This document shows, in pieces, positions 16,321 through 34,424 of a stretch of 46,425 nt of DNA. Position numbers and translations under genes: made by a program. This DNA comes from Streptacidiphilus anmyonensis (lineage in GTDB: Bacteria; Actinomycetota; Actinomycetes; Streptomycetales; Streptomycetaceae), in NCBI RefSeq assembly GCF_000787855.1, contig NZ_BBPQ01000009.1, positions 1 to 46,425 on the forward strand, read 5' to 3'. The notes below the pieces were generated by a model. It saw only the letters and a program-made list of their open reading frames with translations. It was not told the DNA's origin and searched no databases. The first letter of the stretch is position 1, and the number at the start of each line of letters is the position of its first letter.

Positions 16321-16395
16321 GGGCGCATAGCTCAGCGGTAGAGCGCTGCTCTTACAAAGCAGATGTCGGCGGTTCGAATCCGTCTGTGCCCACCA
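16321..16395 (+). tRNA. tRNA-Val (anticodon UAC)
   Basis: Full cloverleaf: acceptor GGGCGCA pairs with TGTGCCC (one G-U), D arm GCTC/GAGC, anticodon stem CTGCT/AGCAG with loop CTTACAA giving anticodon TAC, T arm GGCGG/CCGTC with TTCGAAT loop, discriminator A and an encoded CCA. It is the integration site of the element that follows: its 3' part from the anticodon loop on is duplicated at 31576 and, shorter, at 34386. Insertion keeps the gene intact. Confidence 0.97.
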
Positions 16396-16451
16396 GCTCT
16401 GAACAGCAACGGAGCCCCACACCATGATCGGCGTGAGGCTCCGCGTGCCAC
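16351..16451. repeat. attL: 101-bp direct repeat, copy 1
   Basis: Identical to 31576-31676. Starts with CTTACAAAGCAG in the tRNA anticodon loop, runs through the tRNA 3' end and across the hairpin at 16410-16443. Beyond it the homology to copy 2 continues with mismatches into the integrase gene, as expected because copy 2 also lies next to an integrase. Confidence 0.9.
16410..16443. terminator. Hairpin between tRNA-Val and int 3' end
   Basis: CGGAGCC (16410-16416) plus CAC pairs with GTG plus GGCTCCG (16437-16443), around a 12-nt loop. It lies between the tRNA and the convergent integrase gene and is duplicated with the att repeat at 31635-31668. Likely a two-way terminator. Confidence 0.5.
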
Positions 16452-16461
16452 TTACGTGCCA
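16445..16461. promoter_or_regulatory. Integrase arm-type sites: GTGCCA pair, left end of element 1
   Basis: GTGCCA at 16445-16450 and 16456-16461, 11 bp start to start. The same pair with the same spacing occurs at 31455, 34291 and, with one base changed in the second half, at 31670, always beside an att copy. Confidence 0.6.
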
Positions 16462-17603
16462 GATGGGTCCACATCCGGTGGACTGCCTTCCCTGGCTTCT
16501 TTGATCATCTGCCCGAGCTTGTCCGCGATGACGCGATCCCGGCCGGCGGTCATGTGCTGGTAGATCAACGCAGCGCGGGTGCTGCTGTGGCCCATCCGGG
16601 TCATGAGCTCCCGAGTGCTGGCGCCGGCGTTAGCTGCCAGGGTGTTTCCCGTGTGGCGCAGATCGTGGAAATGCACCTCATCGCTGATCTTCGCCTTCTT
16701 CCGAGCCCTCTCCCACACCTCGTGGAAGTTGCTGCGTCGGAGCTGGCCGCCCAGGGCGCCCGTGAACACGTGGGACGTGGGGCCAGGAGCCACGAAGTGC
16801 TCCAGGTGCACCGTCACGGCGGGCAGCAGCTCGACCGGGAAGGCGATCACCCGGACGCCGGCGCGCGTCTTGGGCGCCTTGTCGAGAAGCTGCCCGGTCG
16901 ACAGCTCAGCCTGCGAGCGCCGAACCGACACCGTGAGCGCGGTTGTGTCAACGTCCGAGCGGCGGAGTGCTGCGAGCTCCCCGAAGCGGAGCGTGGTGAA
17001 GGCACCCAAGAGGACCATGAGCCTGTAGCGCGCCGGGATGGCTTCCACGACGGCGAGCACCTGTTCCACGGTCAGCACGGGACGTTCCGGTACCTCGTAC
17101 TGCCCAGCGCCCTTGATCCGGCAGGGGTTCCGCTGGATCAGCTCGTCATCCAGCGCGGTGTTCATGATGGCCCGAAGTACCTGGTACGCCTTGACCACGG
17201 CTGGCTCACCAACGCCGGAGGCGAGCAGCTTCGAGCGCCAGGCCCGGACCTTCCCAGTCGTGATCTCCCCTACAGTGCTGTGTCGGAAGGTCGGTTGGAT
17301 GTGGAGCCGCAGCGAGATCGCGTAGCGCTGGCGGGAGGTCTCGGCGAGCTTCCGGTCTCGGAGCCAGGCGTCGGCGTAGTCGCCGAAGTTCACCTTGCCA
17401 TCGTCCGGGTCCGTCCAGCGACCGCGCGTGATGTCGGCCTCGATCAGCGTCAGTGCGATCTCGGCTTCCTTCTTGGTGGCGTAAGTCTCCTCGCCGGTCC
17501 GCATCAACCCAGTGATCGGGTCGGGGTAGCGGATCTGCCAACGTCCGGAGGGGAGCTGGCGCACGGAACCGAAGCGGCGGCGCTTGCCCTTGTGGTTGGC
17601 CAT
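16452..17603 (-). CDS. int: Tyrosine site-specific integrase (383 aa)
   Basis: Catalyses integration and, with Xis, excision at tRNA-Val. Seen: N-terminal AP2-like arm-binding part (FGSVRQLPSGRWQIRYPDP), SAM-like core-binding domain (FGDYADAWLRDRK...), catalytic domain with R206 (TTLRFGELAALR), H313xxR316 (HDLRHTGNT), H339 (RMGHSS) and nucleophile Y349 (LIYQHM). The start at 17603 (MANHKGKRRRFG) overlaps the xis stop by one base (TGATG). The 3' end abuts attL. All catalytic residues are present, so it should be active. Confidence 0.95.
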   Translation of the reverse strand: MANHKGKRRRFGSVRQLPSGRWQIRYPDPITGLMRTGEETYATKKEAEIALTLIEADITRGRWTDPDDGKVNFGDYADAWLRDRKLAETSRQRYAISLRLHIQPTFRHSTVGEITTGKVRAWRSKLLASGVGEPAVVKAYQVLRAIMNTALDDELIQRNPCRIKGAGQYEVPERPVLTVEQVLAVVEAIPARYRLMVLLGAFTTLRFGELAALRRSDVDTTALTVSVRRSQAELSTGQLLDKAPKTRAGVRVIAFPVELLPAVTVHLEHFVAPGPTSHVFTGALGGQLRRSNFHEVWERARKKAKISDEVHFHDLRHTGNTLAANAGASTRELMTRMGHSSTRAALIYQHMTAGRDRVIADKLGQMIKEAREGSPPDVDPSGT

Positions 17604-17824
17604 CAGGCAGCCACCCCCAGACGGCGCGAGCCCCGGGCGATGGCAGGCACGGTGTTGGCGTCGATGTACGCCTGAACCACGCTCTCCTTGATGCGCACGT
17701 TGCGGCCGACGTGGACGAACTCGATGCGACGTTCCTCGATCAGCCGGCGCGGGAAGCGCTCCTTGCTCGTGTTCCAAGTGCCGAGCATCTCGGCGACCTC
17801 ACGCACGGTCAGCAGGCGGTCCAC
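17603..17824 (-). CDS. xis: Excisionase, helix-turn-helix (73 aa)
   Basis: Small DNA-bending recombination directionality factor. Seen: a MerR/Xis-type HTH beginning LLTVREVAEMLGTWNTSKER and a wing FVHVGRNVRIKESVVQAYID. Upstream it overlaps the 3' end of repSA by 16 bp; downstream it overlaps int by one base. The tight int-xis-rep layout is that of pSAM2-type elements, where these genes are co-transcribed when transfer is switched on. Confidence 0.9.
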   Translation of the reverse strand: MDRLLTVREVAEMLGTWNTSKERFPRRLIEERRIEFVHVGRNVRIKESVVQAYIDANTVPAIARGSRRLGVAA

Positions 17825-19272
17825 GCCTGTTCCTCCTCTCGATCCTGGAGCAGCGATAGGCGCTCCTCTCTGGCGGCGGTGCGGTTGTGCTGGATCTGTT
17901 CGGCGATGGTGGCGGCGAGCACCGATTCGCCGGGGGTGTGGCCTTGTCCGGCGAAGACCCAGTGGGCGAGGACGAGGGTTTCCCCGTCGTGCTCCAAGTC
18001 GTCCAGGTCCGGGAGGCCGGCGGCGAGGAGCCGTTCGCGCAGTTCCTCGTGGGCCTGTTGGGCGCGGTAGTCCACGCGGGCCTGACGCAGGGCGCCGAGG
18101 GTGGTGGAGTAGCGGGGCGACTTGGACGAGAAGTGGCCGCGGAAGCCGAGCATGTGGGACCAGTGCGCGAGCAGCCGTTCCGGGTAGGCGTCGTCGAGTT
18201 CCCAGCAGGTCTCGATCAGTCGGCGGGTGTGGTCGGGCAGGTCGTAGTCCGCGAGAGCGCCGAGGGAGTGCAGCCGCCGATCCACGCTGTCGGTGACCTC
18301 GGCCGCCTTGGTGGCGTACTTGGCGACGTAGGACGCAACCGCCTGCTCAGTGATCTCGGAGCCGTCGCCAAAGGCCCGGACGGGGCGCACGTCGACCTGC
18401 TCACCCCAGCGCAGGACTCGGGCGGGGTGCGGGCCGGCAGCGTCGAGCGGCACCGTGACGGCCCGTGCGGCGGAGCGGATGGCACGGTCGAGCAGGGAGA
18501 CCGTGGCCCAGGCGGGTGGGGTGGTGCCGGGGGCGTCGGCGCCGTCGAGGCGGATGACGGCGTGGAAGTGCACGGCGCCGCGGCGCTGGTACTCGGCGAC
18601 CTTGCCGAACGCGAGCTTCACCGTGGCGTCGAAGTCCCGGCGGGTGAGGCCGGATGCCTTGGCCAGTTCGCGGCGCAGGTAGATCGTGAAGCGGCGCCAC
18701 AGCTCGGAGGCCCAGTTGTTCCAGAGAACGGCGTGCGCGTAGTCGTACCGCTCCGGGTCGAGCGGCGAGCCGAGCGCGGGGGCTCCCTTCGGGTGCTGCT
18801 TGCCGCAGCGGCAGCAGCCGGTGTCGGGGCGGTTGTGGACCGGGCCGAACGAGGGCGCGGTGAGGGTGGCGAAGACGCGGGGGCAGTCCCGCACGGTGGC
18901 GGGCACGTCCTTGGTCTGGTCGCCGACGAGGCCGGCGCGGATCAGGTGGTAGGTGTCGGCGGCGTACGTCTGGGAGCAGGTGGGGCAGCGGGTGGCGCGG
19001 CGGTTGCCGCAGGCGACCTTGAGGCGTCCGCCGGGTTCGTCGGCGGTGCTGTACTCGCTGAGGACGAGGCCGGTGGGCAGGTGGCGGATGGTCTTGGAGC
19101 CCCACAGGTTGACGGGGTTGGCGCATCCTCCGGTGCGGCGGATCTGCTCGACGAGCCGGGGCAGGTCGCCGCGGGCAGCGAGGCGGGCGAGGTCTTCGAC
19201 GGGTTCGAGGTCCCGCCCAAGGACCGCGCCGGTGAGGGGGGGGTCCGTGGGTCGGGTCAGTGTGGTGGTCAT
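17809..19272 (-). CDS. repSA: Replication initiator RepSA-type, HUH family (487 aa)
   Basis: Rolling-circle replication initiator of pSAM2-like elements. Seen: zinc-binding pairs CGNRRATRCPTC (88-99) and CCRCGKQH (153-160), the metal-binding HUH motif in GAVHFHAVIRLDG (H235-F-H237), and ASYVAKYATKAAE with candidate nicking tyrosines Y315/Y319. Length fits the family. The ATG at 19272 overlaps the methyltransferase stop by one base (TGATG); the open frame beyond it is antisense GC bias. It allows a transient circular form to replicate during transfer. Confidence 0.92.
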   Translation of the reverse strand: MTTTLTRPTDPPLTGAVLGRDLEPVEDLARLAARGDLPRLVEQIRRTGGCANPVNLWGSKTIRHLPTGLVLSEYSTADEPGGRLKVACGNRRATRCPTCSQTYAADTYHLIRAGLVGDQTKDVPATVRDCPRVFATLTAPSFGPVHNRPDTGCCRCGKQHPKGAPALGSPLDPERYDYAHAVLWNNWASELWRRFTIYLRRELAKASGLTRRDFDATVKLAFGKVAEYQRRGAVHFHAVIRLDGADAPGTTPPAWATVSLLDRAIRSAARAVTVPLDAAGPHPARVLRWGEQVDVRPVRAFGDGSEITEQAVASYVAKYATKAAEVTDSVDRRLHSLGALADYDLPDHTRRLIETCWELDDAYPERLLAHWSHMLGFRGHFSSKSPRYSTTLGALRQARVDYRAQQAHEELRERLLAAGLPDLDDLEHDGETLVLAHWVFAGQGHTPGESVLAATIAEQIQHNRTAAREERLSLLQDREEEQAWTAC

Positions 19273-20336
19273 CAGGCGGCGACTCCCGCAGACAGGCGCG
19301 CGGGCACGACCGTGGCCAGCACGGCGGCGGCGAGGCGTGGGGGGACGGCGTTGCCGATCTGCTCGAACTGCTTCGTCCTGGAGCCGCACCACGGGTAGTC
19401 GGTGGGGAACGTCTGGAGGACGGCGGCTTCCGCGACGGTGAGTTGCCGCATCTTCGTGCCGTCGCTGTCGAGCCAGGACACGTCCGCGGTGGCGTGCGCG
19501 AACAGCAGCGTGGGCGCAGGATCGTCCAGCCGGCGACGGGTGGCCGCGGACCGTTTGCCGACGCGCAGGGTCCAGGAGCGTGCGCGGCCGGTCAGGGCCC
19601 AGGCGGGCAGGTCGGCGGTGAACTTGTTGCCGCCCGTGGTGTGTTCGCCGCGGGTGGTGACCTCGCCGGAGGCGAGGCCGAGGGCGGTGGCCATGCTGAT
19701 CCAGCCAGCGCGGCCGGGGCCGAAAAGGGTGTCCGGTTCCGGGTCGCGGGCGTGGGTCGGGGCCGGGGGTGCGACCGGCTGTGTGCGGGAGGCGAGGAGG
19801 AAGGCGCGGCGGCGGGTCTGCGGGACGCCGTAGTCGGCGGCGTTGAGCAGGCCGGTCCAGGTCGCGTATCCGGCAGCTTCGAGCAGGTGGGCGGTGTGAT
19901 CGAAGAGCGGGAGCACGGCGGGGACCTGTTCCAGGGCGATCCACTCGGGGCGCAGGTCGAGGGCGTAGCGCAGCGGCTCCACGACGAGCAGGGAGCGGGG
20001 GTCCTTAAGGCCGGGGCGGATCGCGTCGCGGGTGTCGCGTCCGTGGGCGAGGTCGTGCAGGACCTGGTGGCACAGGTCGGCGTCGTCCAGGCCCTTGCGG
20101 CGACCGCCGGCGCTGAACGGCTGGCACGGCGCGGACCCGATCAGCCCGGTCACCTTTCCGGCTAGGGACGTGGTCGGGTAGCTGGCCACGTCGGTGCAGA
20201 CGGTTGCGTGTCCGGCGGCGTTGCGGGTCTGGCAGGCGGCGGCGTCGAGTTCCATGCCGAAGTCCCGGTGTCCGAGGGCGCGAAGTCCCTGGGACCAGCC
20301 GCCGGGGCCGGCGAACAGGTCGAGAATCGCGTTCAC
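19272..20336 (-). CDS. DNA (cytosine-5) methyltransferase (354 aa)
   Basis: Methylates cytosine in DNA. Seen in order: motif I LDLFAGPGGWSQGL (5-18), catalytic PCQPFS (C71), motif VI as EQV instead of ENV (E136), motif VIII QTRRRAF (173-179), and motif IX/X QIGNAVPP near the end. A GTG at 20336 starts NAILDLFAG; the upstream open frame has no conserved sequence. It sits inside the replication operon, joined to repSA by a TGATG overlap, and no matching restriction gene is adjacent. Probably protects the element or host DNA from restriction; target sequence unknown. Confidence 0.93.
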   Translation of the reverse strand: MNAILDLFAGPGGWSQGLRALGHRDFGMELDAAACQTRNAAGHATVCTDVASYPTTSLAGKVTGLIGSAPCQPFSAGGRRKGLDDADLCHQVLHDLAHGRDTRDAIRPGLKDPRSLLVVEPLRYALDLRPEWIALEQVPAVLPLFDHTAHLLEAAGYATWTGLLNAADYGVPQTRRRAFLLASRTQPVAPPAPTHARDPEPDTLFGPGRAGWISMATALGLASGEVTTRGEHTTGGNKFTADLPAWALTGRARSWTLRVGKRSAATRRRLDDPAPTLLFAHATADVSWLDSDGTKMRQLTVAEAAVLQTFPTDYPWCGSRTKQFEQIGNAVPPRLAAAVLATVVPARLSAGVAA

Positions 20337-20340
20337 GGGG

Positions 20341-20532
20341 TCACCGGTCCTTGTGCGTGGTCTGGTGGGCGAGGTACTCGCTGACCAGGGCCTTGACCTC
20401 GGTCGGGCCGGTGGCCTCGCCGGATGCACCGCAGTGGCACAGGTAGTCGCCGGTGGGCTCGGGGGCTCCGGGCCAGCCCGGGGCGTAGACGTGGATGCCG
20501 GGGTTGTCGGGGGTGACCCAGGTATCGGCCAT
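20341..20532 (-). CDS. Small AICE protein with CHC motif (63 aa)
   Basis: Not recognised. Begins MADTWVTPDNPGIHVYAPGW, has DYLCHCGASG (a Cys-His-Cys cluster) and ends in a charged, helical HQTTHKDR. It stops 5 bp before the methyltransferase start, so it belongs to the same transcript. Small proteins of this kind are common between rep and transfer genes of such elements. The ATG at 20532 is preferred over the one at 20535; either is possible. Confidence 0.55.
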   Translation of the reverse strand: MADTWVTPDNPGIHVYAPGWPGAPEPTGDYLCHCGASGEATGPTEVKALVSEYLAHQTTHKDR

Positions 20533-20536
20533 CACG

Positions 20537-20728
20537 TCACCGGCCAGCCGGGGCGAGCATGGGGGTCTTGTCGTTGGCGGGGACGTTGCCGGTGCCGGAG
20601 CAGTGGAGGCAGATCACGGGGAGCGTCGGCAGGGAGCCGTCCAGGGCGCGGGGGCCGATCGAGATGGCGACGACGGGGAAGCCGTCGCAGGTCGGGCAGA
20701 TGCGCACGGAGGAGGTGTTCGCGGGCAT
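20537..20728 (-). CDS. Small zinc-finger-like AICE protein (63 aa)
   Basis: Not recognised by family name. Two CxxC pairs are visible, ICPTCDGFP and ICLHCSGTG, spaced about 30 residues apart like one DnaJ-type zinc finger. It lies one base before the next gene, in the same operon. Possibly binds nucleic acid or another element protein; that is inference from the Cys pairs. Confidence 0.55.
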   Translation of the reverse strand: MPANTSSVRICPTCDGFPVVAISIGPRALDGSLPTLPVICLHCSGTGNVPANDKTPMLAPAGR

Positions 20729-20772
20729 GATGGTGGGACTCCTGTCCTGTCGGTTGATGGCGGTTCGGGAGG

Positions 20773-20816
20773 CTCGGGGCGACCGTGATTCCTTGGCCGG
20801 GATCGGTCGCCCCGAG
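20773..20816. terminator. Perfect 13-bp inverted repeat between transfer and replication gene sets
   Basis: CTCGGGGCGACCG (20773-20785) pairs perfectly with 20804-20816 around an 18-nt loop. It lies in the 94-bp gap downstream of the 20823-21173 gene and upstream of the dcm/rep genes. It may terminate or attenuate transcription from the transfer genes into replication, or bind a regulator. Confidence 0.5.
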
Positions 20817-20822
20817 GTGGAG

Positions 20823-21173
20823 CTATCGGCGGGTGCGGTGGTCCTGGGTGCTGTTCAGGAGGCTCTTGAGGACGGCGGCGACGACCGCGAGGGCGAGGGC
20901 GCTGACGGCGAAGGCGAGCAGGAGCCCGATGGCGATGGCGCCGACGGTGACGATCGCGACGACGGCTCCGATGCCGCCGGCGACGTACGGGGCGACCGAC
21001 GGGCGCGGGGCCTGGACGACGATCGGCGCGGGCGGGGCGTAGTACGGCTGGGCCTGCTGGTAGTTGGTGGGCAGCGGCGCTGGCGGGTGGACCGGCACGG
21101 GGGCCGGGGGCGGGGTCTGGGCGATGGTGTAGATGCGGTTGGAGCCGGGGGCGAAGGTCGGGCGGATACCCAT
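20823..21173 (-). CDS. Small membrane protein of the transfer module (Spd-like, 116 aa)
   Basis: Proline-rich N-terminal half (TPPPAPVPVHPPAPLPTNY, residues 20-38) followed by a long hydrophobic stretch from about residue 62 to 105 (VAGGIGAVVAIVTVGAIAIG and following), then a short basic tail. Position between dcm and spdB-type genes matches the spread (spd) membrane proteins of Streptomyces elements, thought to help DNA move between mycelial compartments. Exact family not certain. Confidence 0.6.
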   Translation of the reverse strand: MGIRPTFAPGSNRIYTIAQTPPPAPVPVHPPAPLPTNYQQAQPYYAPPAPIVVQAPRPSVAPYVAGGIGAVVAIVTVGAIAIGLLLAFAVSALALAVVAAVLKSLLNSTQDHRTRR

Positions 21174-21195
21174 GGCGGATCAGTCCTTTCGCAGG

Positions 21196-21387
21196 TCAGT
21201 GGTGCTGGTTGACGACGTCGACGCCGGTCTTGGTGGTGGAGTTGATCGCGGGGGCGAACATGGTGTGGGCGAGGTAGAAGCCGAAGAGGAGGACCACGGC
21301 GACGATCCACAGCCGCAGGCGAATGAACTTGATGAGCAGCCAGACGATCAGGCCGAGGACGACGACGAGCGGGAGCTGGACGGTCAT
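21196..21387 (-). CDS. Small membrane protein of the transfer module (63 aa)
   Basis: Nearly all hydrophobic: VQLPLVVVLGLIVWLLIKFI then RLRLWIVAVVLLFGFYLAHT, i.e. two closely spaced membrane spans with a short polar tail. The start overlaps the stop of the DUF2637 gene as ATGA, so it is translationally coupled. Likely a spread/transfer accessory protein; no firm family. Confidence 0.6.
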   Translation of the reverse strand: MTVQLPLVVVLGLIVWLLIKFIRLRLWIVAVVLLFGFYLAHTMFAPAINSTTKTGVDVVNQHH

Positions 21388-22079
21388 GCCGGGACTCCTT
21401 CGAGCTGGGCGTGGATCGCGGTGGCAACGTCGGCCGGGAGGTTGAGGCGGGAGCGCAGGGTGTCCGGGTCGATGGGGGTACCGGTGCGGGTCTGGTGGGC
21501 GTCGGCGAGCTTGCGGGCGTGGTCGAGCAGCGCGGCCGGGACGCTCACCGGCGGGACGGCGGCCGGGACTGGGGGCAGGGCCGGGGCCGGTTCCGGCTCT
21601 GGCAGCACGGGCGCGGTGTCCTCGACCGGGGCGGGCGGGGTGTCGCGTTCCACGTCGAGCACCGGGGCCGGTGCGGGCGCGACCCCCGGGGCGTCGCTAT
21701 CGGAGGGGCGCGGGGTGCGGTCGTGGGCGAGGAGGGTGCCGCCGAGGAACGCGGCGGCGGGCCAGCCGGCGACGAGCATGCGCAGCCAGGCGGGGGCGTT
21801 GTGCATGTCGAGGAATCCGGCGGTGGCGACGTTCGCGCCGAGCGACGCGGTGAGGGCGATGGTGAACCAGGCCCAGGCGAGGCGGGCGGATCGGTCGGTT
21901 CGGAGGCGGCGCCAGGCGGCGACCAACAGCAGGTCGACGCTGATCGGGTAGGCCCACGCCTTCCAGCCGGTCTGCCCGGCGGAGCCGGCGACGTCGTGGA
22001 GGTGGGCGAAGGACAGGGCGGCGGCGATGACGGCCTGGACGAGGACCGCGTCCACGCGGGGCAGGAGACGGCGGTTCAT
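21384..22079 (-). CDS. DUF2637 / SpdB-type membrane protein (231 aa)
   Basis: Four membrane spans in the first 125 residues (VDAVLVQAVIAAALSFAHL, AWAYPISVDLLLVAAW, ARLAWAWFTIALTASLGANV, WPAAAFLGGTLLAH) followed by a Pro/Ala-rich linker and a short C-terminal helical domain (DPDTLRSRLNLPADVATAI) that looks like a winged-helix fragment. DUF2637 proteins are the SpdB component of Streptomyces conjugation. The ATG at 22079 has GGAG upstream. A chromosomal relative lies at 43843-44850. Confidence 0.82.
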   Translation of the reverse strand: MNRRLLPRVDAVLVQAVIAAALSFAHLHDVAGSAGQTGWKAWAYPISVDLLLVAAWRRLRTDRSARLAWAWFTIALTASLGANVATAGFLDMHNAPAWLRMLVAGWPAAAFLGGTLLAHDRTPRPSDSDAPGVAPAPAPVLDVERDTPPAPVEDTAPVLPEPEPAPALPPVPAAVPPVSVPAALLDHARKLADAHQTRTGTPIDPDTLRSRLNLPADVATAIHAQLEGVPA

Positions 22080-22102
22080 CGGGGGTCTCCGTTCGGAGGG
22101 TT

Positions 22103-22207
22103 GAGACCGGAGGCGGGCGGGGCGCTCGGCCGACCGCCCGTCTCGGTATTGGGCATGGCTCGGTAGGGACTTGGCGCGTGGGTGCACCGACCAGGGGCTT
22201 TCGGTGC
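22103..22207. terminator. Two hairpins between traB and the DUF2637 gene
   Basis: A 7-bp perfect stem GCACCGA/TCGGTGC (22184-22207) follows the traB stop by 3 bp. Further on, GGGCGG/CCGCCC (22115-22139), extended by GAGAC/GTCTC with a bulge, precedes the DUF2637 gene. They could reduce read-through from traB. Confidence 0.4.
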
Positions 22208-22209
22208 CG

Positions 22210-23595
22210 CTACGGGGCGGCTGGCGCCGGGATGTAGACCGAGTCCTCAGGGATCGCGTCGACCGGGACCGGTCGGAAGCCGTTCAGGGCTGGGACGTTG
22301 GGCACGAGGTGCGCGGTCTGGGCGCACAGGACGGCGGTCTCGTTGAGCGAGCGGTACGGGGTTCGGATGCGCTGCCAGTGCCCGGAGGTGTCGCCCGCTA
22401 TGGCGACGCCGGCCAGGTCGGGGCTGATGTTGACGGCGGCGTGGACGGCAGACTCGGCGACGTCCCCGAGGCCCATCTTGGCGGTGTCGGTGTCGTTGAC
22501 GCGGTGGACGACGCGGTTGGAGAGCTGGGAGCGCAGCAAGGTGGCGCCCTTGCCGAGTTCGGAGCCGAAGCGCTGGCCGTTGACTTCGAGGTACATGCCG
22601 GCGGATCGGGCGAGCTGGGCGAAGCGGACCATGAGCGTGACGGTCTCCTGGATGCGCTTCTTGTCCCGGTCGGAGGAGCCGAGGAACAGTTCCGCGATCT
22701 CGTCCACGATCACCACGATCGGGACCGGGCGAATGCGCTCGGGCAGGCCCCAGATGTCGGCGGTGATGTCGCCGTTCGTCACGCTGCCTGGAATGCCGAG
22801 GTAGTCGCGGATCAGGTCGTAGCGCTCGACCATGACGGTCTTGACCAGGACCCGGAACAGGTCCAGTGCCGCATCCGGATCGGGTGCGAGGGCGGAAAGG
22901 CGGGGGGCGAAGGGCATCTGCTCGACGCCCATCTTGCAGTCGACCCCGCAGATGGCGACGTGCCGCGGGGCGAGGCCGTGGATCAGGTTGCGGGTGAGCA
23001 TGGACTTGCCGGACCCGGTGGCCCCGAGGTTCAGCGCGTGGGGCTTGGCCTGGTAGTCGCGCTCGTAGACGGTGCCGTCCTCGGCGAGCGCCACCGGAAC
23101 CCGTAGCGGACTGCCGGGCTTGGCGTTGAGCTTGCCAGGCATGACCACGTTGCGCAGCACGTCGAAGCCGGTGATCCGGATGTCCACGATGCCGGGGCGG
23201 ACCTCGACCACGTGGACCGAGTGGACCTGCCATGCGTGCCGTAAGGCTTCCGCCGCATCCGCCACGGTGGCGGTGGTCATGCCCTTCGCGAGCCGGACCC
23301 GCAGCCGGACACCCCGGGTGGAGGGGCGGACCCCGCGCACCTTCGGCGGGACCGGGCGGGCGAGCTGCTGACCCTCGCGGCGAGTCAGGAAGACCTTCCA
23401 CAGCGGCGGCTCGGTCGACAGACCGCACACCTCCATCGTGGAAGCCCAGTCCCGACCGATCCGGAACAGCGCGGCCGGCAGACCGACCGTGGACCAGTAG
23501 CCGCGCGGGGCGTGCTCACGGGCGTAGAGCGCACCGGCTGTGCCGGACAGGGCTATCGGTCCGCCCGCCTCGATGAGCGCCAACAGGTCGTTCAC
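22210..23595 (-). CDS. traB: TraB/TraSA conjugative DNA translocase, FtsK-like (461 aa)
   Basis: Hexameric ATPase that pumps double-stranded DNA to the recipient mycelium, the sole essential transfer protein in this plasmid class. Seen: Walker A NLGATGSGKSMLTR (GATGSGKS at 191-198), Walker B IVVIVDEIAELF (293-304), an arginine-finger region around VRFAQLARSAGMY, and RSQLSNRVVHRVND typical of FtsK/SpoIIIE domains. No strong membrane span is visible at the N-terminus, which is common for this group. Followed by spd-type genes in an operon. Confidence 0.93.
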   Translation of the reverse strand: MNDLLALIEAGGPIALSGTAGALYAREHAPRGYWSTVGLPAALFRIGRDWASTMEVCGLSTEPPLWKVFLTRREGQQLARPVPPKVRGVRPSTRGVRLRVRLAKGMTTATVADAAEALRHAWQVHSVHVVEVRPGIVDIRITGFDVLRNVVMPGKLNAKPGSPLRVPVALAEDGTVYERDYQAKPHALNLGATGSGKSMLTRNLIHGLAPRHVAICGVDCKMGVEQMPFAPRLSALAPDPDAALDLFRVLVKTVMVERYDLIRDYLGIPGSVTNGDITADIWGLPERIRPVPIVVIVDEIAELFLGSSDRDKKRIQETVTLMVRFAQLARSAGMYLEVNGQRFGSELGKGATLLRSQLSNRVVHRVNDTDTAKMGLGDVAESAVHAAVNISPDLAGVAIAGDTSGHWQRIRTPYRSLNETAVLCAQTAHLVPNVPALNGFRPVPVDAIPEDSVYIPAPAAP

Positions 23596-23600
23596 GACGC

Positions 23601-23945: not shown

Positions 23946-23983
23946 GAGCCAACTCCCACAGTCGGTACCCGGCTTCTGACGCC

Positions 23984-24048: not shown

Positions 24049-24097
24049 AGGCCGGCTGTGGATCTGAGAGTCTGTCTGTGACTGAGAGGGAGGCTCC

Positions 24098-26259: not shown

Positions 26260-26378
26260 ACAAGCGGGGGATCAGCCGGCACCGGGATGACCGGGGCTGT
26301 GCCGAATGTGCAGGTCGTGGAGGGCTGATGTGGGGACTGCCATTCCGCCCACCATCGACCCAGGCAAAGCCGAGCAGA

Positions 26379-27068: not shown

Positions 27069-27930
27069 GGAAGACATCGATAGCATCTTCGATGAAAAGG
27101 TGAAGCCCAGCCTTCAGGGCCGGAAACCCACAGGCAGGAAACCCCGTGTAATTTTTCTCGCAGGGCAGCCCGCTTCCCTTAAAAGCACCACCGAGCGAGA
27201 CCTAAAGCGCAGCGCGGAATACCAAGACGCTGTAATTATCGACGGCGACAAGTGGCGTGTTCATCACCCCAGCCACACGCCTTGGAATATCACCGACGAC
27301 ACCTCTGCTGCTTCGAAGGAGCAGCCGGTGATCGGGGCGTGGGTAGACCGGGCGGTAAGGTACGTGGCCGAATGCGGCTTCGATGCGATTGTCAGCGCAA
27401 CGCTGAAGGACCCCGCGCAGGCAGCGAAGAAAATTAAGCCATTCGCCGCGCACAACTACGAGATCGTCGTTGCATTCACGGCAGTCCATGGTGCATACAG
27501 CAAGCTCTCGGTGATTCTCCGCTATATCAATGATAAGGCTCAAACCGGCTTTGGCCGCTATGTCCCAGCAACGGTCCATGATCAGGCCTATAGTGGCGTC
27601 CTGGATACCGCCCGCACACTGGATGACGGCATCGACGTTGATTTGGAGGTCCGCGTCTACCGCCGAGAGCGCGGGCTTACCAAACTCGTATACGACGACA
27701 CTATTCGAGATTCCCACTGGAGAAAGGGCGGGCATCATGTCGCCGTCTGGAGGGCAATCCAAGAGCAGCAAGAGATTCATTGGAACGATAGTCTTGGTGA
27801 TTTCAGATCCTGCGCAACACGCGTAATGCAAGCCCAAGGGACCCTGAGCGAGGACCTCCAGAAACATACGAAGGAGTCCTTTGCTGACCTCGCCACCAAG
27901 TATCAAAGCATTTGCCTCGGTCTCCATTGA
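27031..27930 (+). CDS. Zeta toxin-like P-loop kinase (299 aa)
   Basis: Zeta toxins phosphorylate UDP-N-acetylglucosamine and block wall synthesis (family knowledge). Seen: VIFLAGQPASLKSTTERDLK with the P-loop at 45-53, and the family motif VIIDGDKWRVHHPSH (68-82), then VDRAVRYVAECGFDAIVSAT and DPAQAAKKIKPFAAHNYEIV. Odd: the P-loop reads GQPASLKST, with Leu in place of the second Gly of GxxxxGK[ST]. Start is ATG 27031 or 27025. Low third-position GC for this genome. It forms a module with the overlapping upstream gene. Confidence 0.8.
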   Translation: MDKPERIAASQPEEDIDSIFDEKVKPSLQGRKPTGRKPRVIFLAGQPASLKSTTERDLKRSAEYQDAVIIDGDKWRVHHPSHTPWNITDDTSAASKEQPVIGAWVDRAVRYVAECGFDAIVSATLKDPAQAAKKIKPFAAHNYEIVVAFTAVHGAYSKLSVILRYINDKAQTGFGRYVPATVHDQAYSGVLDTARTLDDGIDVDLEVRVYRRERGLTKLVYDDTIRDSHWRKGGHHVAVWRAIQEQQEIHWNDSLGDFRSCATRVMQAQGTLSEDLQKHTKESFADLATKYQSICLGLH

Positions 27931-28050
27931 TGCGCGGCACGTAGCAAATTGCATGGATGGTCTCCAGTCTTCGCCAGGGGTCAAGAGCCCCGTGACTATC
28001 AGGTCCGGCGCCCTACATTGGGCGAGGGTCCCCCGAGGACTCGTAGGGGC

Positions 28051-28186
28051 AGCGCCGATCGAGGTGGACGCCTGACCTGGGGACCACACAGCCTGCACGC
28101 CTCCGAACAACACAAGCTCATCGAGACCTCGCGACACGTCCCTCGTGCCCGTTGAGCTGTGGGAACCCTTAACTCGCCGAACTGGG
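28051..28186. repeat. Interspersed cargo repeat R1
   Basis: Related to R3 (30221-30362) over about 135 bp and partly to R2. Shared landmarks: GCGCC.ATCGAG, TGGGGACCACA, ACAAGCTCA, CGTGCC.G.TGAGCTG.GG and AACTCG. It lies downstream of the zeta gene in the 655-bp gap 27931-28585, which otherwise holds no gene I can support. Confidence 0.6.
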
Positions 28187-28585
28187 GGTCCAGTGATCTG
28201 AGTGGCGCTCCCCATCTGGCCCGACGGTGATGACCTGCCGCCCCGGCTGCTGTGAGTGCGTCGACTTGGACTTGAATCACGTCGGCGCACATCCGAGTGG
28301 TCAGGTTCCAGACCTACACGGAGAAGTCGTCGCCGGCCGTGACGACGACAGGACGCCCATTCATCGCCGTACCCGCCACTGCCCTGACCCGGTGCGGTGT
28401 GGCCGGTCAGCGGCTCGCCCGCCGAGGCGCCGGCGGTCAAGTCCCTGCGCATGTGTTCGCACCGCGGGCCAGTCCCCCCGCCAAGCTGCCGTAGCAAGGC
28501 CACCGCCAGCGCACGAGGCAGCACCTCAACGGCAGAAGACTCGATTAGGCAGAAATGTCCCAGGCGTAGCTTCGGCAATGCCATC

Positions 28586-29908
28586 ATGTCTCGCATGCTT
28601 CGGTCTTCTAGCCCTTCTGCAACGAGTCCCGTTCCGAAAGACGCCCATCGGACACTGGGGCTCTGGTCGATTCGTCGTGCGCTCTCCATCTCCGTCTTGG
28701 CTTCCGTCGCCCTGCTGGCTGGTAGCTGGTTCGCAATTTCGTGGCTCCTCGGCACTCCACTTCGAATACATGCCAAGGCCACAACCGCGTCAGATGAGCT
28801 TGACATCCTAAAACTCGTCCTGGCTATCGTTGCGGGAGCTGGCGCCTTGGTCGCACTTGTGACCGCATATCGCCGACAGAGACTAGAGGAAATTGCCAGC
28901 GAGCGCGCCGAGCGCATTCAGGCACACGCCCAGCTCATCGCCCAGGAAAATATTCACGACGCGACCGAACGAAGGATCACAGAGCTCTACAGCAAAGCCG
29001 TTGAACAACTTGGGCACAGCAAAGCAGCCGTGCGACTCGGAGGCCTGTATTCGCTCGAGCGACTGGGGCAGCAGAATGAAACGCATCGGCAAGTAATCGT
29101 CGAGGTAATATGCGCATACTTGCGCATGCCCTACACGCCGCCGAAGAGTTTTCTGGATCCAGATTCACCCGACCAAGAGAATTCACTTGAGTCGGAGGCA
29201 TCTCAGGAGCGAGAGGTTCGCCGAGCAGCCCAGGATATCCTGGCGAAGCACTTGCGCAAGTACACCCTTGGCTACAGGATCCGGCGGAGTAGCGACGAGC
29301 CGCCGGCATCGGAACAGTACTGGCCTGGAGTCGAATTGAACCTCCAATCAGCCGTTCTCATTGATGCAGATTTCACCGAATGCCATTTCGGCGATTCTTC
29401 CTTTGATGGCTGCAAATTCCTTGGCCAGACAAGGTTCTCCGGAGCGACGTTCAATGGAGCTACGACATTTGGTGGCGCAAAATTCAGTGGCTGGGCAGGG
29501 TTCGACGGAACAGAGTTCTATGACTACGTCGCCCTGCATGATCTAACGTTCGCAAGCGTAGCCGACTTCAGGAATTCTGCCTTTCATCGTCAATTCAGCC
29601 TAGTGCGAGCACGATTCCAGGGGAACACTTGGTTCTCCAATGCACTATTCTACGCAGACATCAGGTTCATTGACCGCAGATTCCCGCAAAGCAATTCTGA
29701 ATTCTCGCATTCCATAGACCTCAGCGGGGCTCAAATGCTGGACGCATCGGAAGACTGCATGCTGCCCAGCGCTTGGCGAATGCAACCCAATGGCACTGGA
29801 GGGGAAATGGTTACTGACATGAAAACGTCCAGGTATGCGCCCGCAAAAAACGTTCGTCCGCCCTATCCAAGGGAAGGCTGTACTCCAGATCCCCAATGGG
29901 TCAGATGA
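28586..29908 (+). CDS. Two-span membrane protein with pentapeptide repeats (440 aa)
   Basis: Layout: two membrane helices (about 33-55 and 74-95), a charged coiled-coil RRQRLEEIASERAERIQAHA (97-116 and on), a conserved helical part EQLGHSKAAVRLGGLYSLER (144-163), and from about residue 265 a run of A(D/N)F/L-type pentapeptides (DADFTECHFGDSSFDGCKFL, FSGATFNGATTFGGAKFSG) forming a right-handed beta-helix. The type is widespread in actinobacteria; function is unknown. I prefer the ATG at 28586, since the longer frame upstream is not conserved-looking. Codon use is AT-rich, like the zeta module. Confidence 0.75.
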   Translation: MSRMLRSSSPSATSPVPKDAHRTLGLWSIRRALSISVLASVALLAGSWFAISWLLGTPLRIHAKATTASDELDILKLVLAIVAGAGALVALVTAYRRQRLEEIASERAERIQAHAQLIAQENIHDATERRITELYSKAVEQLGHSKAAVRLGGLYSLERLGQQNETHRQVIVEVICAYLRMPYTPPKSFLDPDSPDQENSLESEASQEREVRRAAQDILAKHLRKYTLGYRIRRSSDEPPASEQYWPGVELNLQSAVLIDADFTECHFGDSSFDGCKFLGQTRFSGATFNGATTFGGAKFSGWAGFDGTEFYDYVALHDLTFASVADFRNSAFHRQFSLVRARFQGNTWFSNALFYADIRFIDRRFPQSNSEFSHSIDLSGAQMLDASEDCMLPSAWRMQPNGTGGEMVTDMKTSRYAPAKNVRPPYPREGCTPDPQWVR

Positions 29909-29965
29909 GACATCGATTCGAAGGCGTTGTCAGCGGTGCCTGCCGACAACGCTGAGGGGTTAGTC

Positions 29966-30016
29966 GACTGGGACCACACGCGGTGCACGCGACCACACAC
30001 AAGGCGGCTCACCGAT
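29966..30016. repeat. Interspersed cargo repeat R2 (partial)
   Basis: Short relative of R1 and R3: CTGGGACCACAC, a GCACGC spacer, then GACCACACACAAGGCGGCTCA. It lies just after the pentapeptide gene in the 548-bp gene-free gap 29909-30456. Confidence 0.4.
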
Positions 30017-30220
30017 CGCAGCGCTCCGAGAGCTCGTGGGCGGACGCGCCTTCGGCGGGGCGAATCAGACACCGCCGGTGCGTCTGGCGGAGACGCCAGC
30101 GATGAAGTGACCTCCAGGTGGGTCGGTCCCCTGTGCCAGGCGAGCGCCGTGATTGAGGTGTGCGCCTGGTGGCACTGGCGACCGGGGCGGACCCCATTGC
30201 CGGTCGACTGATCTACGGGC

Positions 30221-30362
30221 CGGCGCCTATCGAGAGGCGCACCCCAGGGACCACTTGGGGACCACATCTCCGACACGCGGCCGAACGTAACAAGCTCACC
30301 GGACTCCGTGATACTCCATCGTGCCTGCTGAGCTGCGGAAACCTTCAACTCGGCAAAGTGGG
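30221..30362. repeat. Interspersed cargo repeat R3
   Basis: Relative of R1 over its whole length. It carries two copies of GGGACCAC 10 bp apart (from 30247 and 30258), like paired protein-binding sites. It lies in the same gap as R2, before the HNH nuclease gene. Confidence 0.6.
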
Positions 30363-30456
30363 AGGCAAGTCGGGCGCAGTCACACACGGACCGAGGAACC
30401 GCCGGCACGGCGCCATGCCCAAGCCGAGCGTCAGTCATCGCTCGTAAGATCCCAGC

Positions 30457-31443
30457 ATGAATGGGGTGGGCATAGAGACTCTGACCGCTGGGACGAGCGG
30501 CCAAGCCTGGTCGTTTCTCGTCACAGGCGAGGAACGGCAGTTCATGGGGAACGCTGGCTACGACGACGTGGTGGAGAAGTCCTACAGCTACGACTCCACC
30601 GTCGCGAATCACCGTCGAGTCGCGCAGGGCGATCTGATCGTTGTTCGCAACGGCCGGGAAGCCCTGGGGGCGGGCCACATCGAGGAGTTGGAGGTACTGC
30701 CCAACCAGTCCAAGATCCGTAGCCGCTGTCCGCACTGTGGCAGCACGAGCTTCAAGGAGCGGACGACCGAGCTGCCTCGGTACAAGTGCAGCCCCTGCAA
30801 GACCGCGTTTGACGTGGCCAATGTTGAGACCATCGAAGTCACCGGTTACCGAGCGCACTACGGCGGAAGTTGGCAGGCTCTGGAAGGCTGCCTGGACAAG
30901 GTACAGCTGGCTGAATTGAGCCTCAGCAAGTCCGACCAGCACTCGATCAAGGCCATGGACCACGAGGAGCTGATGGCTGCTCTGGCCATTCGCGGCGTCC
31001 GCCTTCCTGACGATGGGCGAGAGACACCGCGCGAGCGGCGGCACCCCAGAGAGCTACCCGGCGGCCGGCGGCGATCCATGGCCGCGGCGCGGAGGGGCCA
31101 GGACGCGTTTCGGCGCGCGCTCGTGGGTCAGTACGGAATGGTCTGTGCCGTCACAGGTCCAGCCCCGGCCGAGGTGCTTGAAGCCGCCCACCTCCGTCCA
31201 TTCGCTGTGACCGAGCAGCACCGGGTCGAGGAAGGCCTCATGCTGCGGGCGGACATTCACCGGCTCCTGGACAACGGCCTGCTGACCATCAGCCCCGAAC
31301 TTGTGGTCAGCGTCGCCCCCAGCCTCCGCGGATATGCCGAGTACATTGCGCTCCACGGTACGAGGCTGCTCATTCCCGAGGAGGCCGTCGTGGACCGCTC
31401 GGCGCTCCGGGAGCACTTCGAGGCGACCACAGCCACTTGGTAG
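30457..31443 (+). CDS. HNH endonuclease with N-terminal reader-like domain and zinc ribbon (328 aa)
   Basis: Three parts are visible. Residues 1-85 (SFLVTGEERQFMGNAGYDDV; RRVAQGDLIVVRNGREALGA) look like a PUA-superfamily/EVE-like fold that in other enzymes reads modified bases. Residues 91-114 are a zinc ribbon (CPHC...CSPC). The C-terminal part has an HNH_2 nuclease: GQDAFRRALVGQYGMVCAVTG, EAAHLRPF (H245) and MLRADIHRLLDNGLL (D266, H268). This suggests a modification-dependent (type IV-like) restriction enzyme. Last gene before the right end of element 1. The reader domain is a pattern judgement. Confidence 0.78.
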   Translation: MNGVGIETLTAGTSGQAWSFLVTGEERQFMGNAGYDDVVEKSYSYDSTVANHRRVAQGDLIVVRNGREALGAGHIEELEVLPNQSKIRSRCPHCGSTSFKERTTELPRYKCSPCKTAFDVANVETIEVTGYRAHYGGSWQALEGCLDKVQLAELSLSKSDQHSIKAMDHEELMAALAIRGVRLPDDGRETPRERRHPRELPGGRRRSMAAARRGQDAFRRALVGQYGMVCAVTGPAPAEVLEAAHLRPFAVTEQHRVEEGLMLRADIHRLLDNGLLTISPELVVSVAPSLRGYAEYIALHGTRLLIPEEAVVDRSALREHFEATTATW

Positions 31444-31454
31444 CCGTCCACCGC

Positions 31455-31471
31455 GTGCCATTAGCGTGCCA
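31455..31471. promoter_or_regulatory. Integrase arm-type sites: GTGCCA pair, right end of element 1
   Basis: GTGCCA at 31455-31460 and 31466-31471 (11 bp apart), 105 bp before the middle att copy. The following bases (AGGACGGCGGGCG...) are shared with the right end of element 2 at 34291, so both right arms have a common origin. Confidence 0.6.
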
Positions 31472-31575
31472 GGACGGCGGGCGTCCAGCAGGGACCGGCG
31501 GGTAGTCACGGGGACACGGGCGGCTTCCGTGCAGGTCAGAGATTCGCAGGTCAGCCCAGATCCGACCCGGGAAGG

Positions 31576-31676
31576 CTTACAAAGCAGATGTCGGCGGTTC
31601 GAATCCGTCTGTGCCCACCAGCTCTGAACAGCAACGGAGCCCCACACCATGATCGGCGTGAGGCTCCGCGTGCCAC
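31576..31676. repeat. Middle att site: 101-bp direct repeat, copy 2
   Basis: Exact copy of 16351-16451, including the tRNA 3' half with CCA and the hairpin. It is at once the right end of element 1 and the left end of element 2. No 5' half of the tRNA is present. Confidence 0.9.
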
Positions 31677-31686
31677 CTACGTGCTA
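31670..31686. promoter_or_regulatory. Integrase arm-type sites: left end of element 2
   Basis: GTGCCA at 31670-31675 and GTGCTA at 31681-31686, again 11 bp apart. The second site has one base changed compared with the left arm of element 1. Confidence 0.5.
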
Positions 31687-32053
31687 CTTGGGGGCGGCTG
31701 ACCGGCCTCCGTGGCTTCTTTGATCATCTGCCCCAGCTTGTCCGCGATGACGCGATCCCGGCCGGCGGTCATGTGCTGATAGATCAACAGCCCGGGTGCT
31801 GCTGTGACCCATCCGGGTCATGAGCTCCCGAGTGCTGGCGCCGGCGTTCGACGCGGGGGTGTTCCCCGTCTGGCGGAGATCGTGGAAGTGCACCTCTTCG
31901 CTGATCTTCGCCTTCTTCCGATCCCGTTCCCACACCTCGTGGAAGTTGCTCCGCCGAAACTGCCCGCCCAGGGCGCCCGTGAAAACGTGGGACACGGGGC
32001 CGGGAGCCACGAAGTGCTCCAGGCGCGCGGTCATGCTCGGCAGCAGTTCCACC
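31677..32053 (-). pseudogene. Truncated, frameshifted tyrosine integrase
   Basis: Matches the last ~120 residues of the intact int (VELLP, LEHFVAPGPVSHVFTGALGG, FRRSNFHEVWERDRKKAKIS, HFHDLRQTGNT, RELMTRMGHSSTRA) and then breaks: two bases are missing near 31790 (intact GATCAACGCAGCGCGGG versus GATCAACAGCCCGGG), so the codons around the catalytic tyrosine are out of frame. The 5' three quarters of the gene are gone; homology stops near 32053. A His-to-Gln change follows HDLR. Confidence 0.85.
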
Positions 32054-32153
32054 GTCTCCGCCGCCGTGCGCCCGGCGGCAGGCGGCAGGTGGCCCGCCGC
32101 AACGACGAGCCACCCAAGTACGAACCCCCGCAAGGGGGCGGTCGCTGACGCGA

Positions 32154-32294
32154 TCAACAGCCCTTCTGCTCCGGTTGGCCACAGACCGGGCAGTCGTATT
32201 CGTCGACTGAGTCCACGCCGACCTGGTGACCGCAGTAATCGCATGGCCGTACGCACTGCTCGTCAGACGTGCCGACGACTGGCTCATCGTTCAT
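32154..32294 (-). CDS. Small zinc-ribbon protein (46 aa)
   Basis: Begins MNDEPVVGTSDEQCVRPCDY and contains CDYCGH and CPVCGQ, two knuckles of a compact zinc ribbon. The frame is open to 32384 but the earlier part lies in the D1 repeat. Function unknown; short, so confidence is moderate. Confidence 0.5.
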   Translation of the reverse strand: MNDEPVVGTSDEQCVRPCDYCGHQVGVDSVDEYDCPVCGQPEQKGC

Positions 32295-32318
32295 GCTGGC
32301 CAGAGCGAGGCGCTGGCC

Positions 32319-32447
32319 GATGTACAGCACAGAAGAACAGCAACTGTGTCGACCGCAGCCGACCGGCCCTGACCCTGACTGCATGGATGACCTGGACGGG
32401 AGACCTCAGCGACCGAACTGCCGGTAGTCCTCAGCGAGGGGGGTCAG
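32319..32447. repeat. Direct repeat D1 of element 2
   Basis: About 129 bp, imperfectly repeated at 33744-33871. Two blocks are identical: 20 bp at 32346-32365 and 33 bp at 32394-32426. The 310-bp gap 32385-32695 contains most of it and no convincing gene. Confidence 0.75.
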
Positions 32448-32695
32448 AGTGCGCGGCCGGCACAGACAGGCTGCACTCTTGGCCATCGACGAAGCCTGGT
32501 CGTCGGTTAGGTCCCGAGCATGACTATCGGGCCGCCCCCGGACAGAACCAGGGATGCAGCTGCACTACAGAGCTGGATGCCTCGTTGCCGACCGCGCACC
32601 TGGACGGTATCGAGTACGACTGACACCCAGGAGCCGCAGGCATGCCCCTGTGCGCCCGTAGGGGCTGGGAACGCGGACAGCAGGCGATGGGCTGG

Positions 32696-33181
32696 CTAAA
32701 GCTCCTCTACCGACAGCGGGAACTCCCACTCGGGCAGCCACTGGACGTTCTGCTCCGGCGATAGCGCGTGGGAGATCCACGCCGGCAGGCTGAGCTCCGT
32801 CTCGTACCACTCGACCCATTGCCGGCACCACGCAGCCACGCGCCACCCTCCCGAGCGCTGCACCAGGAAAAGCTGGTCCGCATCCACGGTGTTCCCCCAG
32901 ATCAGCATGCCTCCTGGGGAGGGCAGCAGGGGGTCCGGGATTCGCCTGTTGCGTATGATCTGCGGCCCGAAGTCTTGGTGCACATCCAGGAGTGCCCCGG
33001 GGTGGTGGATGGCCAAGAAGCCCTCGATCATGAGCCCGCCGTAAGCGTTCAGGAAGTCTCGGGCATCGTCCGGAACGGTGGCTGACAGGTCGGCTTCGAT
33101 CTCGCTCCAGATGGAGTCCGAGTCCGGGTCGAGTGCAAGCGGATCTCCCAGGATCGAACGAAGGTCGTCGAGCGATGACAT
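32696..33181 (-). CDS. SMI1/KNR4 (SUKH)-type protein (161 aa)
   Basis: Resembles SUKH immunity proteins. Seen: VPDDARDFLNAYGGLMIEGF (39-58), the fold's typical 'Y-G-x' opening strand, then LLPSPGGMLIWGNTVDADQL and a Trp-rich C-terminus (WVEWYETELSLPAWI). Start at 33181 with GGAGGG just upstream; the upstream open frame is noncoding-like. In other bacteria such proteins neutralise polymorphic toxins or occur alone as 'orphan' immunity genes. No toxin partner is nearby. Confidence 0.75.
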   Translation of the reverse strand: MSSLDDLRSILGDPLALDPDSDSIWSEIEADLSATVPDDARDFLNAYGGLMIEGFLAIHHPGALLDVHQDFGPQIIRNRRIPDPLLPSPGGMLIWGNTVDADQLFLVQRSGGWRVAAWCRQWVEWYETELSLPAWISHALSPEQNVQWLPEWEFPLSVEEL

Positions 33182-33371
33182 GAAGCCCTCCGAAGCATCT
33201 GCGCGTCGCCGAGCGTACAGCGCCAGAACCGCGCCAGACGGGGCGGGACGGGAGGGAGAGCCCGGGGGAGCCACCGGGACCCAGGTTGCCGGCCTGCGCT
33301 GACTCGGGCCGAGTTGGGGGGGCGTTCCTGGTGTCTCATTCGCTGAGGCTGTGCTGCCGTGGGGCTCGGGA

Positions 33372-33683
33372 ATGAACGCCAATGAGATGGCGTGGCTCAT
33401 GACGGATGAGGATCCGGACATGTGGCCTGTCGTCGCGTGCAGACGGCACGTGAGCTACGGCGAATCACACTGGGCTATGTTCGACTGCGGCATGGTCCAG
33501 TTCATCACTCGCATGATGCTCGGCCAGTTCGACGATTGCCCCCTCGGGAATGCCTCGCTGTGGAAGCGAACGGCACCGTTCGTCAGCTGGCGCGAACAGC
33601 GGCGACGCATGGTCGCGGGACTGGATCCGATGACAGGCGAGCCGGACCCTTACGCAGACATGTTCCCCATCACCGACGATTGA
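33372..33683 (+). CDS. Conserved-looking small protein (103 aa)
   Basis: Not recognised by family. Begins MNANEMAWLMTDEDPDMWPV; the middle HWAMFDCGMVQFITRMMLGQ is followed by SLWKRTAPFVSWREQRRRMV and ends PYADMFPITDD. Rich in Trp/Met/Phe, as small immunity-type proteins often are. Its place beside a SUKH-type gene and before repeat D2 suggests an immunity or defence role, by context only. The frame could start at 33351. Confidence 0.55.
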   Translation: MNANEMAWLMTDEDPDMWPVVACRRHVSYGESHWAMFDCGMVQFITRMMLGQFDDCPLGNASLWKRTAPFVSWREQRRRMVAGLDPMTGEPDPYADMFPITDD

Positions 33684-33743
33684 TCGCAGGCCCGTCCAAA
33701 CAGTCATGACATGCAGCCGGTTCAGTGTGAGCAGCGCACGGCA

Positions 33744-33871
33744 GATGTACCGCACGGAGGTACAGCAACCGTGTCGACCGCAGCCGACCGATCCCAACCC
33801 CGGAAACGTCATTGACCAGGACGGGAGACCTCAGCGACCGAACTGCCGGTACTTCGCATCGAGGGGGTCAG
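33744..33871. repeat. Direct repeat D2 of element 2
   Basis: Second copy of D1 (identical blocks 33771-33790 and 33819-33851). D1 and D2 bracket the SUKH-type gene and the 33372 gene, and D2 precedes the 33949 gene. Confidence 0.75.
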
Positions 33872-33948
33872 CGTTGCTGCTCCCCAACCGGAGCGGTCCT
33901 GCGGATATCCCGTGGACGCTCACTCAGGGGCCTGTCTAACTTCGCAGC

Positions 33949-34275
33949 ATGGAGCAGGAGCACCCCCTAGTACGCGACGTCTTCCCGGAACTCATCAGTG
34001 AGCTGATGGCACTCTTGGAGGACGAAGGGGAACGCGAACTGTCAATCTGCGCATGGGATCTGCGCTTGTTCGGCGAGTGCGGCTGCCGTGACGACTTCTG
34101 TCAGAGCATCCGGACTTCGGACCATCCACAGGGACAGCCGTACGGAGCTGGCCACCGGTGTGTTCCCCTGTCCCCCTCCACGGGCATGCTGATCCTGGAT
34201 GTCGTGGATCATCGCATCGTGTACGTGGAGGTTCTCCAGCGGCCCACCATGTGTCGGCAAGACCTCAAGTCCTGA
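33949..34275 (+). CDS. Small conserved-type protein (108 aa)
   Basis: Family name unknown to me, but the pattern LISELMALLEDEGERELSIC, CGCRDDFCQSI, GHRCVPLSPSTGMLILDVVD and RIVYVEVL is that of a recurrent small bacterial protein with a CxCxDDFC cysteine cluster. Possible metal site. Last gene of element 2, 16 bp before the right arm sites. Function unknown. Confidence 0.65.
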   Translation: MEQEHPLVRDVFPELISELMALLEDEGERELSICAWDLRLFGECGCRDDFCQSIRTSDHPQGQPYGAGHRCVPLSPSTGMLILDVVDHRIVYVEVLQRPTMCRQDLKS

Positions 34276-34290
34276 GGTTGCCCCGGGCGC

Positions 34291-34307
34291 GTGCCAGAAC
34301 CGTGCCA
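34291..34307. promoter_or_regulatory. Integrase arm-type sites: right end of element 2
   Basis: GTGCCA at 34291-34296 and 34302-34307, 11 bp apart, followed by the AGGACGGCGGGCG stretch seen also at 31472. It is 79 bp before the third att copy. Confidence 0.6.
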
Positions 34308-34385
34308 GGACGGCGGGCGCCCAGCGGGTAATCGCGGGAACCCGCACTGTGAGAGCGCAGCTCAGAGGGTCGCAGGTCAGACGGG

Positions 34386-34424
34386 AAGCAGATGTCGGCG
34401 GTTCAAATCCGTCTGTGCCCACCA
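34386..34424. repeat. attR: third att copy (39 bp, one mismatch)
   Basis: AAGCAGATGTCGGCGGTTCA... through CCA matches the tRNA 3' end with one change: TTCGAAT has become TTCAAAT in the T loop. The 3' flank after CCA differs from the other two copies, marking the return to chromosomal sequence. Confidence 0.8.

Follow-up and report, generated by a model that had tools for sequence, protein, structure and literature searches.

Three co-oriented copies of the 3' part of one tRNA gene in the soil bacterium Streptacidiphilus anmyonensis raise the question of how many mobile elements have entered this site, and which of them can still leave it. The window analysed here (46,425 nucleotides) contains an intact tRNA-Val(UAC) gene on the plus strand (16321-16395; ARAGORN; Rfam tRNA, 72.6 bits); core copy 1 is its 3' part, starting at 16351. 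Sequence comparison places core copy 2 at 31576-31620 and core copy 3 at 34386-34424, both on the plus strand. Copies 1 and 2 are part of a longer identity (16351-16451 and 31576-31676, 101/101 bp) that includes 56 bp beyond the tRNA, while copy 3 is a 39-bp match with one mismatch and is without the anticodon-loop part CTTACA. The sole other matches in the 9.39-Mb genome are four tRNA-like sequences with 78-80% identity. A previous, sequence-only reading of this DNA had located the three copies in the same way, and had described a complete 15.2-kb element, with an intact integrase beside copy 1, followed by a 2.8-kb relic with a broken relative of that integrase beside copy 2. These claims are borne out: both elements are bounded by core copies, the first integrase is an open frame (16452-17606), the second is a C-terminal remnant (31684-32256), and the gene content fits. 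The array is genuine and of a type already known, and its sequence makes it likely that elements of one specificity entered this tRNA-Val gene at least three times, accounting for an AICE (element 1), a locked element 2 and the vestige of a third arm.

Element 1 (16351-31575; 15,225 bp, delimited by core copies 1 and 2 and by gene content) has the gene set of a pSAM2-like AICE. Reading from the tRNA, the minus strand encodes a tyrosine integrase (16452-17606; Pfam PF00589, E 2.4e-21), an excisionase-like HTH protein (17603-17824; Pfam HTH_17; TIGR01764), a RepSA replication initiator (17821-19293; Pfam RepSA, E 8.1e-146; NCBIfam NF041486 above cut-off), a C5-cytosine DNA methyltransferase (19272-20336; Pfam PF00145), small proteins, a DUF2637 protein (21384-22085; Pfam) and an FtsK/SpoIIIE-type, TraB-like ATPase (22210-23595; Pfam FtsK_SpoIIIE above cut-off, NCBIfam plasmid_TraB weak and below cut-off). 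The plus strand encodes, in order, an ABM protein, an HTH-TPR regulator and a NUDIX hydrolase (24098-26078; Pfam), and then a cargo of a zeta-toxin-like protein (27001-27930; Pfam PF06414), a pentapeptide-repeat protein (28397-29908; Pfam) and an HNH nuclease (30457-31443; Pfam HNH_2; PADLOC HNH). All of these named frames are open. As expected of an AICE, the element is integrated site-specifically in the 3' end of a tRNA gene, has Int and Xis next to its attachment site, and carries an AICE-type replication initiator and an FtsK/TraB-type translocase. The arm scan found a GTGCCA pair on the integrase side (16445-16461, plus strand) and another at the right end (31455-31471, plus strand), and the element, apparently complete and probably active, should be able to excise on its own. 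The cargo is separated from the NUDIX gene by a strong inverted repeat (26383-26443), possibly a two-way terminator, and a direct repeat (28075-28194 and 30253-30370, 74% alike) lies on either side of the pentapeptide gene. The element also pairs the C5 methyltransferase with an HNH nuclease that weakly matches restriction enzymes.

Element 2 (31576-34385; 2,810 bp) is a relic between core copies 2 and 3, recognized as such by its truncated integrase. GTGCCA arm pairs are retained on its integrase side (31670-31686, plus strand, one base changed) and at its right end (34291-34307, plus strand). Comparison shows that the frame of the integrase remnant (31684-32256, minus strand; Pfam E 5.4e-9) shifts by 2 bp ahead of the region that holds the catalytic tyrosine. 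Pfam detected no Xis, Rep or transfer families in the five frames scanned, and the element is on this evidence without integration or transfer genes of its own. Its right end is homologous to that of element 1 (31452-31620 versus 34288-34424, 68%), a similarity absent from the sequence-only reading. Apart from the window itself, the genome that best matches its interior among the 61 searched is G008 (90%, window 33736-34266), at a contig end facing the contig with the G008 flank. The interior is a mosaic, since 195 bp of it (32439-32633) match a sequence at 6.34 Mb in G012 with 97% identity. Beyond copy 3, the segment 34443-34481 resembles a decayed integrase-side arm (local score 38, against a maximum of 32 in 2918 other window segments); a decayed GTGCCA pair with two changes (34457-34473, plus strand) is found here, and the arm, which the sequence-only reading does not mention either, resembles the vestige of a third element.

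Two copies (32315-32450 and 33740-33874, 81% alike) of a dispersed 125-bp sequence, present in 14 of 41 genomes searched, also lie within element 2. Most copies carry a GTACAGCA pair with a period of 13, and in three relatives (L113, L123 and L126) a tRNA 3' end was seen by eye to follow the repeat; in L113 and L123, ARAGORN detected no complete tRNA at that place. The idea that the two copies encode a structured RNA was dropped without folding, as the GTACAGCA pair and the tRNA 3' end look like element ends, and the repeats may be element ends of a further arm word that became buried in element 2.

The sequence from 34518 onward is the old right side of the site, because it is kept after tRNA-Val in G006 and after the last core copy in G008. 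The gene preceding the tRNA and the right flank (34518-36921 by comparison) are both conserved in these two genomes, mostly at 82-88% identity. In G006 (L038) the tRNA is followed by 435 bp and then the flank. In G008 the gene and the tRNA are on L040 and the last core copy, followed by the flank, is on L039, an array split over two contigs whose order is partly assumed. The expectation that the DNA beyond the array follows tRNA-Val in relatives is borne out in G006 and, on a contig other than that of the tRNA, for the last core copy of G008. Only these two of the 61 genomes have strong flank matches beside tRNA-Val, and both hold remnants (an integrase-side arm after the tRNA in G006, the array in G008); among the 61, which include 14 Streptacidiphilus, the search for a strictly empty tRNA-Val site next to this flank gave none. 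Serial elements between co-oriented att repeats, one target and a flank common to relatives, all present here, are what tandem accretion leaves. The distal side of the G008 array keeps a 90% relative of the right part of element 2, which suggests that element 2 is older at the site than element 1.

At up to three mismatches, the pattern of the tRNA 3' part is found in at least 143 of 394 genomes drawn from the family, and two or three copies are present in half of the Streptacidiphilus genomes (7/14: G000, G002, G003, G004, G008, G009 and G012). In G009 (S. jiangxiensis), a relic of the same integrase type lies beside tRNA-Val (L047, 5937-7860); it retains a piece of the integrase and a right end whose core has decayed. 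A polarity rule, with intact elements near the tRNA and relics far from it, was not retained after comparison of multi-copy arrays, which are a selection and not all of them. No integrase match lies within 2.3 kb of the tRNA copy in G175, where a full one accompanies the second copy. In G069 each of the first two copies adjoins a full-length match, so that two complete integrases stand in series, and G285 has a first match that extends as far as the stretch goes and a full-length second one.

We propose that element 1 is the newest arrival in the 3' half of tRNA-Val(UAC), an order of arrival that we infer from the comparisons above. Its Int and Xis would recombine core copies 1 and 2 by way of the GTGCCA arm pairs on both sides, which probably bind Int, and the product would be a 15.2-kb circle capable of replication through RepSA and transfer through the FtsK-type ATPase. 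Element 2 would be an older, internally deleted relative that has retained arm pairs at both ends and been locked by the loss of its integrase and of the crossover part of its right core. The third element would survive only as the decayed arm after copy 3.

The locked state of element 2 is read from core copy 3. In pSAM2 the crossover position is a 7-bp overlap at the anticodon loop, and the crossover at tRNA-Val is likewise expected in the anticodon loop. Identity to the tRNA begins at CTTACA, in this loop, in most element-left tRNA fragments. Among the 34 fragments fetched without requiring CTTACA, the hexamer is exact in 27, has one or two changes in six and is absent in copy 3 only; this count leaves out L044 7, where the copy is cut by the contig start, and L080 2025, a chance match, and the other 63 of the 97 parsed fragments came from a pattern that requires CTTACA and carry no evidence on its retention. 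The copy 3 side is 22 bp shorter than the right end in G008 and the right arm of element 2 stands at -95 instead of -127, a shortened right end known from one assembly only. If no overlap is shared, copy 3 should be unable to exchange strands with copy 1 or 2. The sequence-only reading had element 1 mobilising element 2 in trans, or both leaving as one 18-kb circle; the missing CTTACA argues against either route, and a locked relic would correct this part of a reading that otherwise stands in its tandem accretion of a complete AICE and a relic. Persisting mobility, in which copy 3 still serves as a substrate for the Int of element 1 and element 2 or the 18-kb circle is moved, would be in keeping with the single arm word at all ends, with the 39 bp of core retained and with the composite circles detected by PCR for tandem AICEs of Frankia (PMC3218068). 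Set against the lost anticodon-loop segment and the displaced arm at -95, these points leave it improbable in our judgement. Homologous recombination between the 39-bp repeats could occur at a low rate.

The identity of copies 1 and 2 over 101/101 bp, 56 bp of them past the tRNA, could also suggest that element 2 arose from an end of element 1 by duplication or recombination and never arrived separately. We give this very little credence, as the integrase parts differ by about 10%, the level seen between species: the integrase DNA of the two elements is 88.7% identical over 487 bp, and their int parts are 89.5% alike, compared with 85.9-90.1% for elements in different species. This divergence points to separate arrivals. 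The identical stretch evolves slowly in relatives as well (96-98% against G004 and G009, both Streptacidiphilus, and G006), and the right end of element 2 is closest to that of G008.

The paired direct repeats found in the flanks of elements at this tRNA are GTGCCA (period 11), TGACGGC and TGACATC (both period 13); their distance is 38-106 bp from the core that precedes them and 95-140 bp from the one that follows. These words were picked by eye on part of the data; away from the att regions, none of 1952 segments of the window comes within one mismatch of them. Thirty-two segments lie between successive copies, and in all 21 that were callable both ends of the element share a word. Among 16 integrase sequences, the GTGCCA and TGAC types are 20-27% identical to each other by segment, compared with 62-72% among the GTGCCA type; the single TGACGGC integrase shares 66-70% identity with those of the TGACATC type, indicating that both TGAC words go with a single integrase subfamily. 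In G410 (L070-L072), four core copies carry three words in series, TGACGGC, TGACATC and then a decayed GTGCCA element.

From 97 fragments parsed in 85 genomes, 26 junctions were callable, with a word before and after the core at no more than one mismatch each. Abutting elements differ in their words at 24 of these and agree at 2, where 8.9 agreements are expected by shuffling (P 0.0015), a statistic limited by the relatedness of the species and by tandem collapse in short-read assemblies. The result is similar on 25 distinct combinations (P 0.0016) and is P 0.06 with one junction per downstream cluster (2/16 agree). In a post hoc split, junctions outside Streptacidiphilus agree in 0/24 cases (8.0 expected, P 7e-5) and, clustered, in 0/14 (4.5 expected, P 0.004). 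With the TGAC words pooled, 8/26 agree against 13 expected (P 0.048), or 6/24 against 12.4 in the 24-junction set (P 0.005). Allowing two mismatches gives 4/33 agreements, namely window copy 2, G003, window copy 3 and a decayed arm in G547. The two same-word junctions at one mismatch, window copy 2 and G003, are both without a recognisable distal end, since copy 3 is broken in the window and G003 has no further core within 4.3 kb (two copies genome-wide at three mismatches). A full-length, one-frame integrase match follows the core in 4 of the 24 mixed junctions (L068, L071, L095 and L162), and in the others it is partial, split or absent, in some because the stretch is short. The loss of the distal end at same-word junctions is therefore no clean contrast, as most mixed junctions also show no full-length, one-frame integrase match.

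The exclusion of like arm words between neighbouring elements is the new point here, and is suggestive. Arm-type sites might serve as an identity code for elements on one tRNA, such that different codes stack stably and same-code pairs are purged unless an att site breaks. Each Int would recombine its own ends only, a same-code pair would be lost by cross-recombination unless one attachment site breaks, and the window would show such a pair caught by a break. We put this forward tentatively and think it rather doubtful, given the lack of a clean contrast, the relatedness of the species and tandem collapse. The relatives do hint that elements stacked at tRNA-Val usually differ in their integrase-site 'codes'. 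tRNA genes gather mobile elements, and the arm-word survey makes the sharing of a site a countable prediction. It is also apparent that flanking direct repeats alone do not make a relic mobilizable, and that the crossover part of the core needs checking.

The pSAM2 element of Streptomyces ambofaciens resides in tRNA-Pro, with a 3' target starting at the anticodon loop. Element 1 resembles it in RepSA, Xis, tyrosine Int and a tRNA 3' target from the anticodon loop, and differs in its target tRNA, arm sites and cargo. In Streptococcus thermophilus, CIMEs are found beside ICESt1-type ICEs. Like a CIME, element 2 lies between att-like repeats, without integration genes, beside a complete relative; however, a CIME requires usable attL- and attR-like sites on both sides, and element 2 appears to be without one, copy 3 having no anticodon-loop segment.

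AICE accretion, tandem AICEs, remnants and composite circles are already known (PMC9513070, PMC3218068). The principle behind a code of arm sites is not new either, since arrays of elements with the same integrase are described as unstable (PMC3218068); that source, from 2011, considered it not clear whether such barriers constrain AICEs. No count of arm sites was found in the parts of PMC9513070 and PMC3218068 consulted or in a limited literature search. In a Streptomyces population, AICEs and defective AICEs have accreted at tRNA-Arg (PMC9513070), and, as in the window, several elements and an old remnant are lined up between direct repeats of a single tRNA gene. It was proposed there that a defective neighbour is mobilized in cis, and one AICE family in that study occupies a tRNA-Val gene. 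The array differs from the window in tRNA and genus, and arm sites and crossover loss are absent from the text examined. In Frankia (PMC3218068), the AICEs Fean5518 and Fean5534 lie in tandem in tRNA-Lys and Fean6303 has three repeats, matching the window in a tandem with closely related integrases and in a tRNA with three direct repeats. Circles of both kinds, separate and composite, were detected for the Frankia elements, whereas in the window the distal core, as read from its sequence, looks broken.
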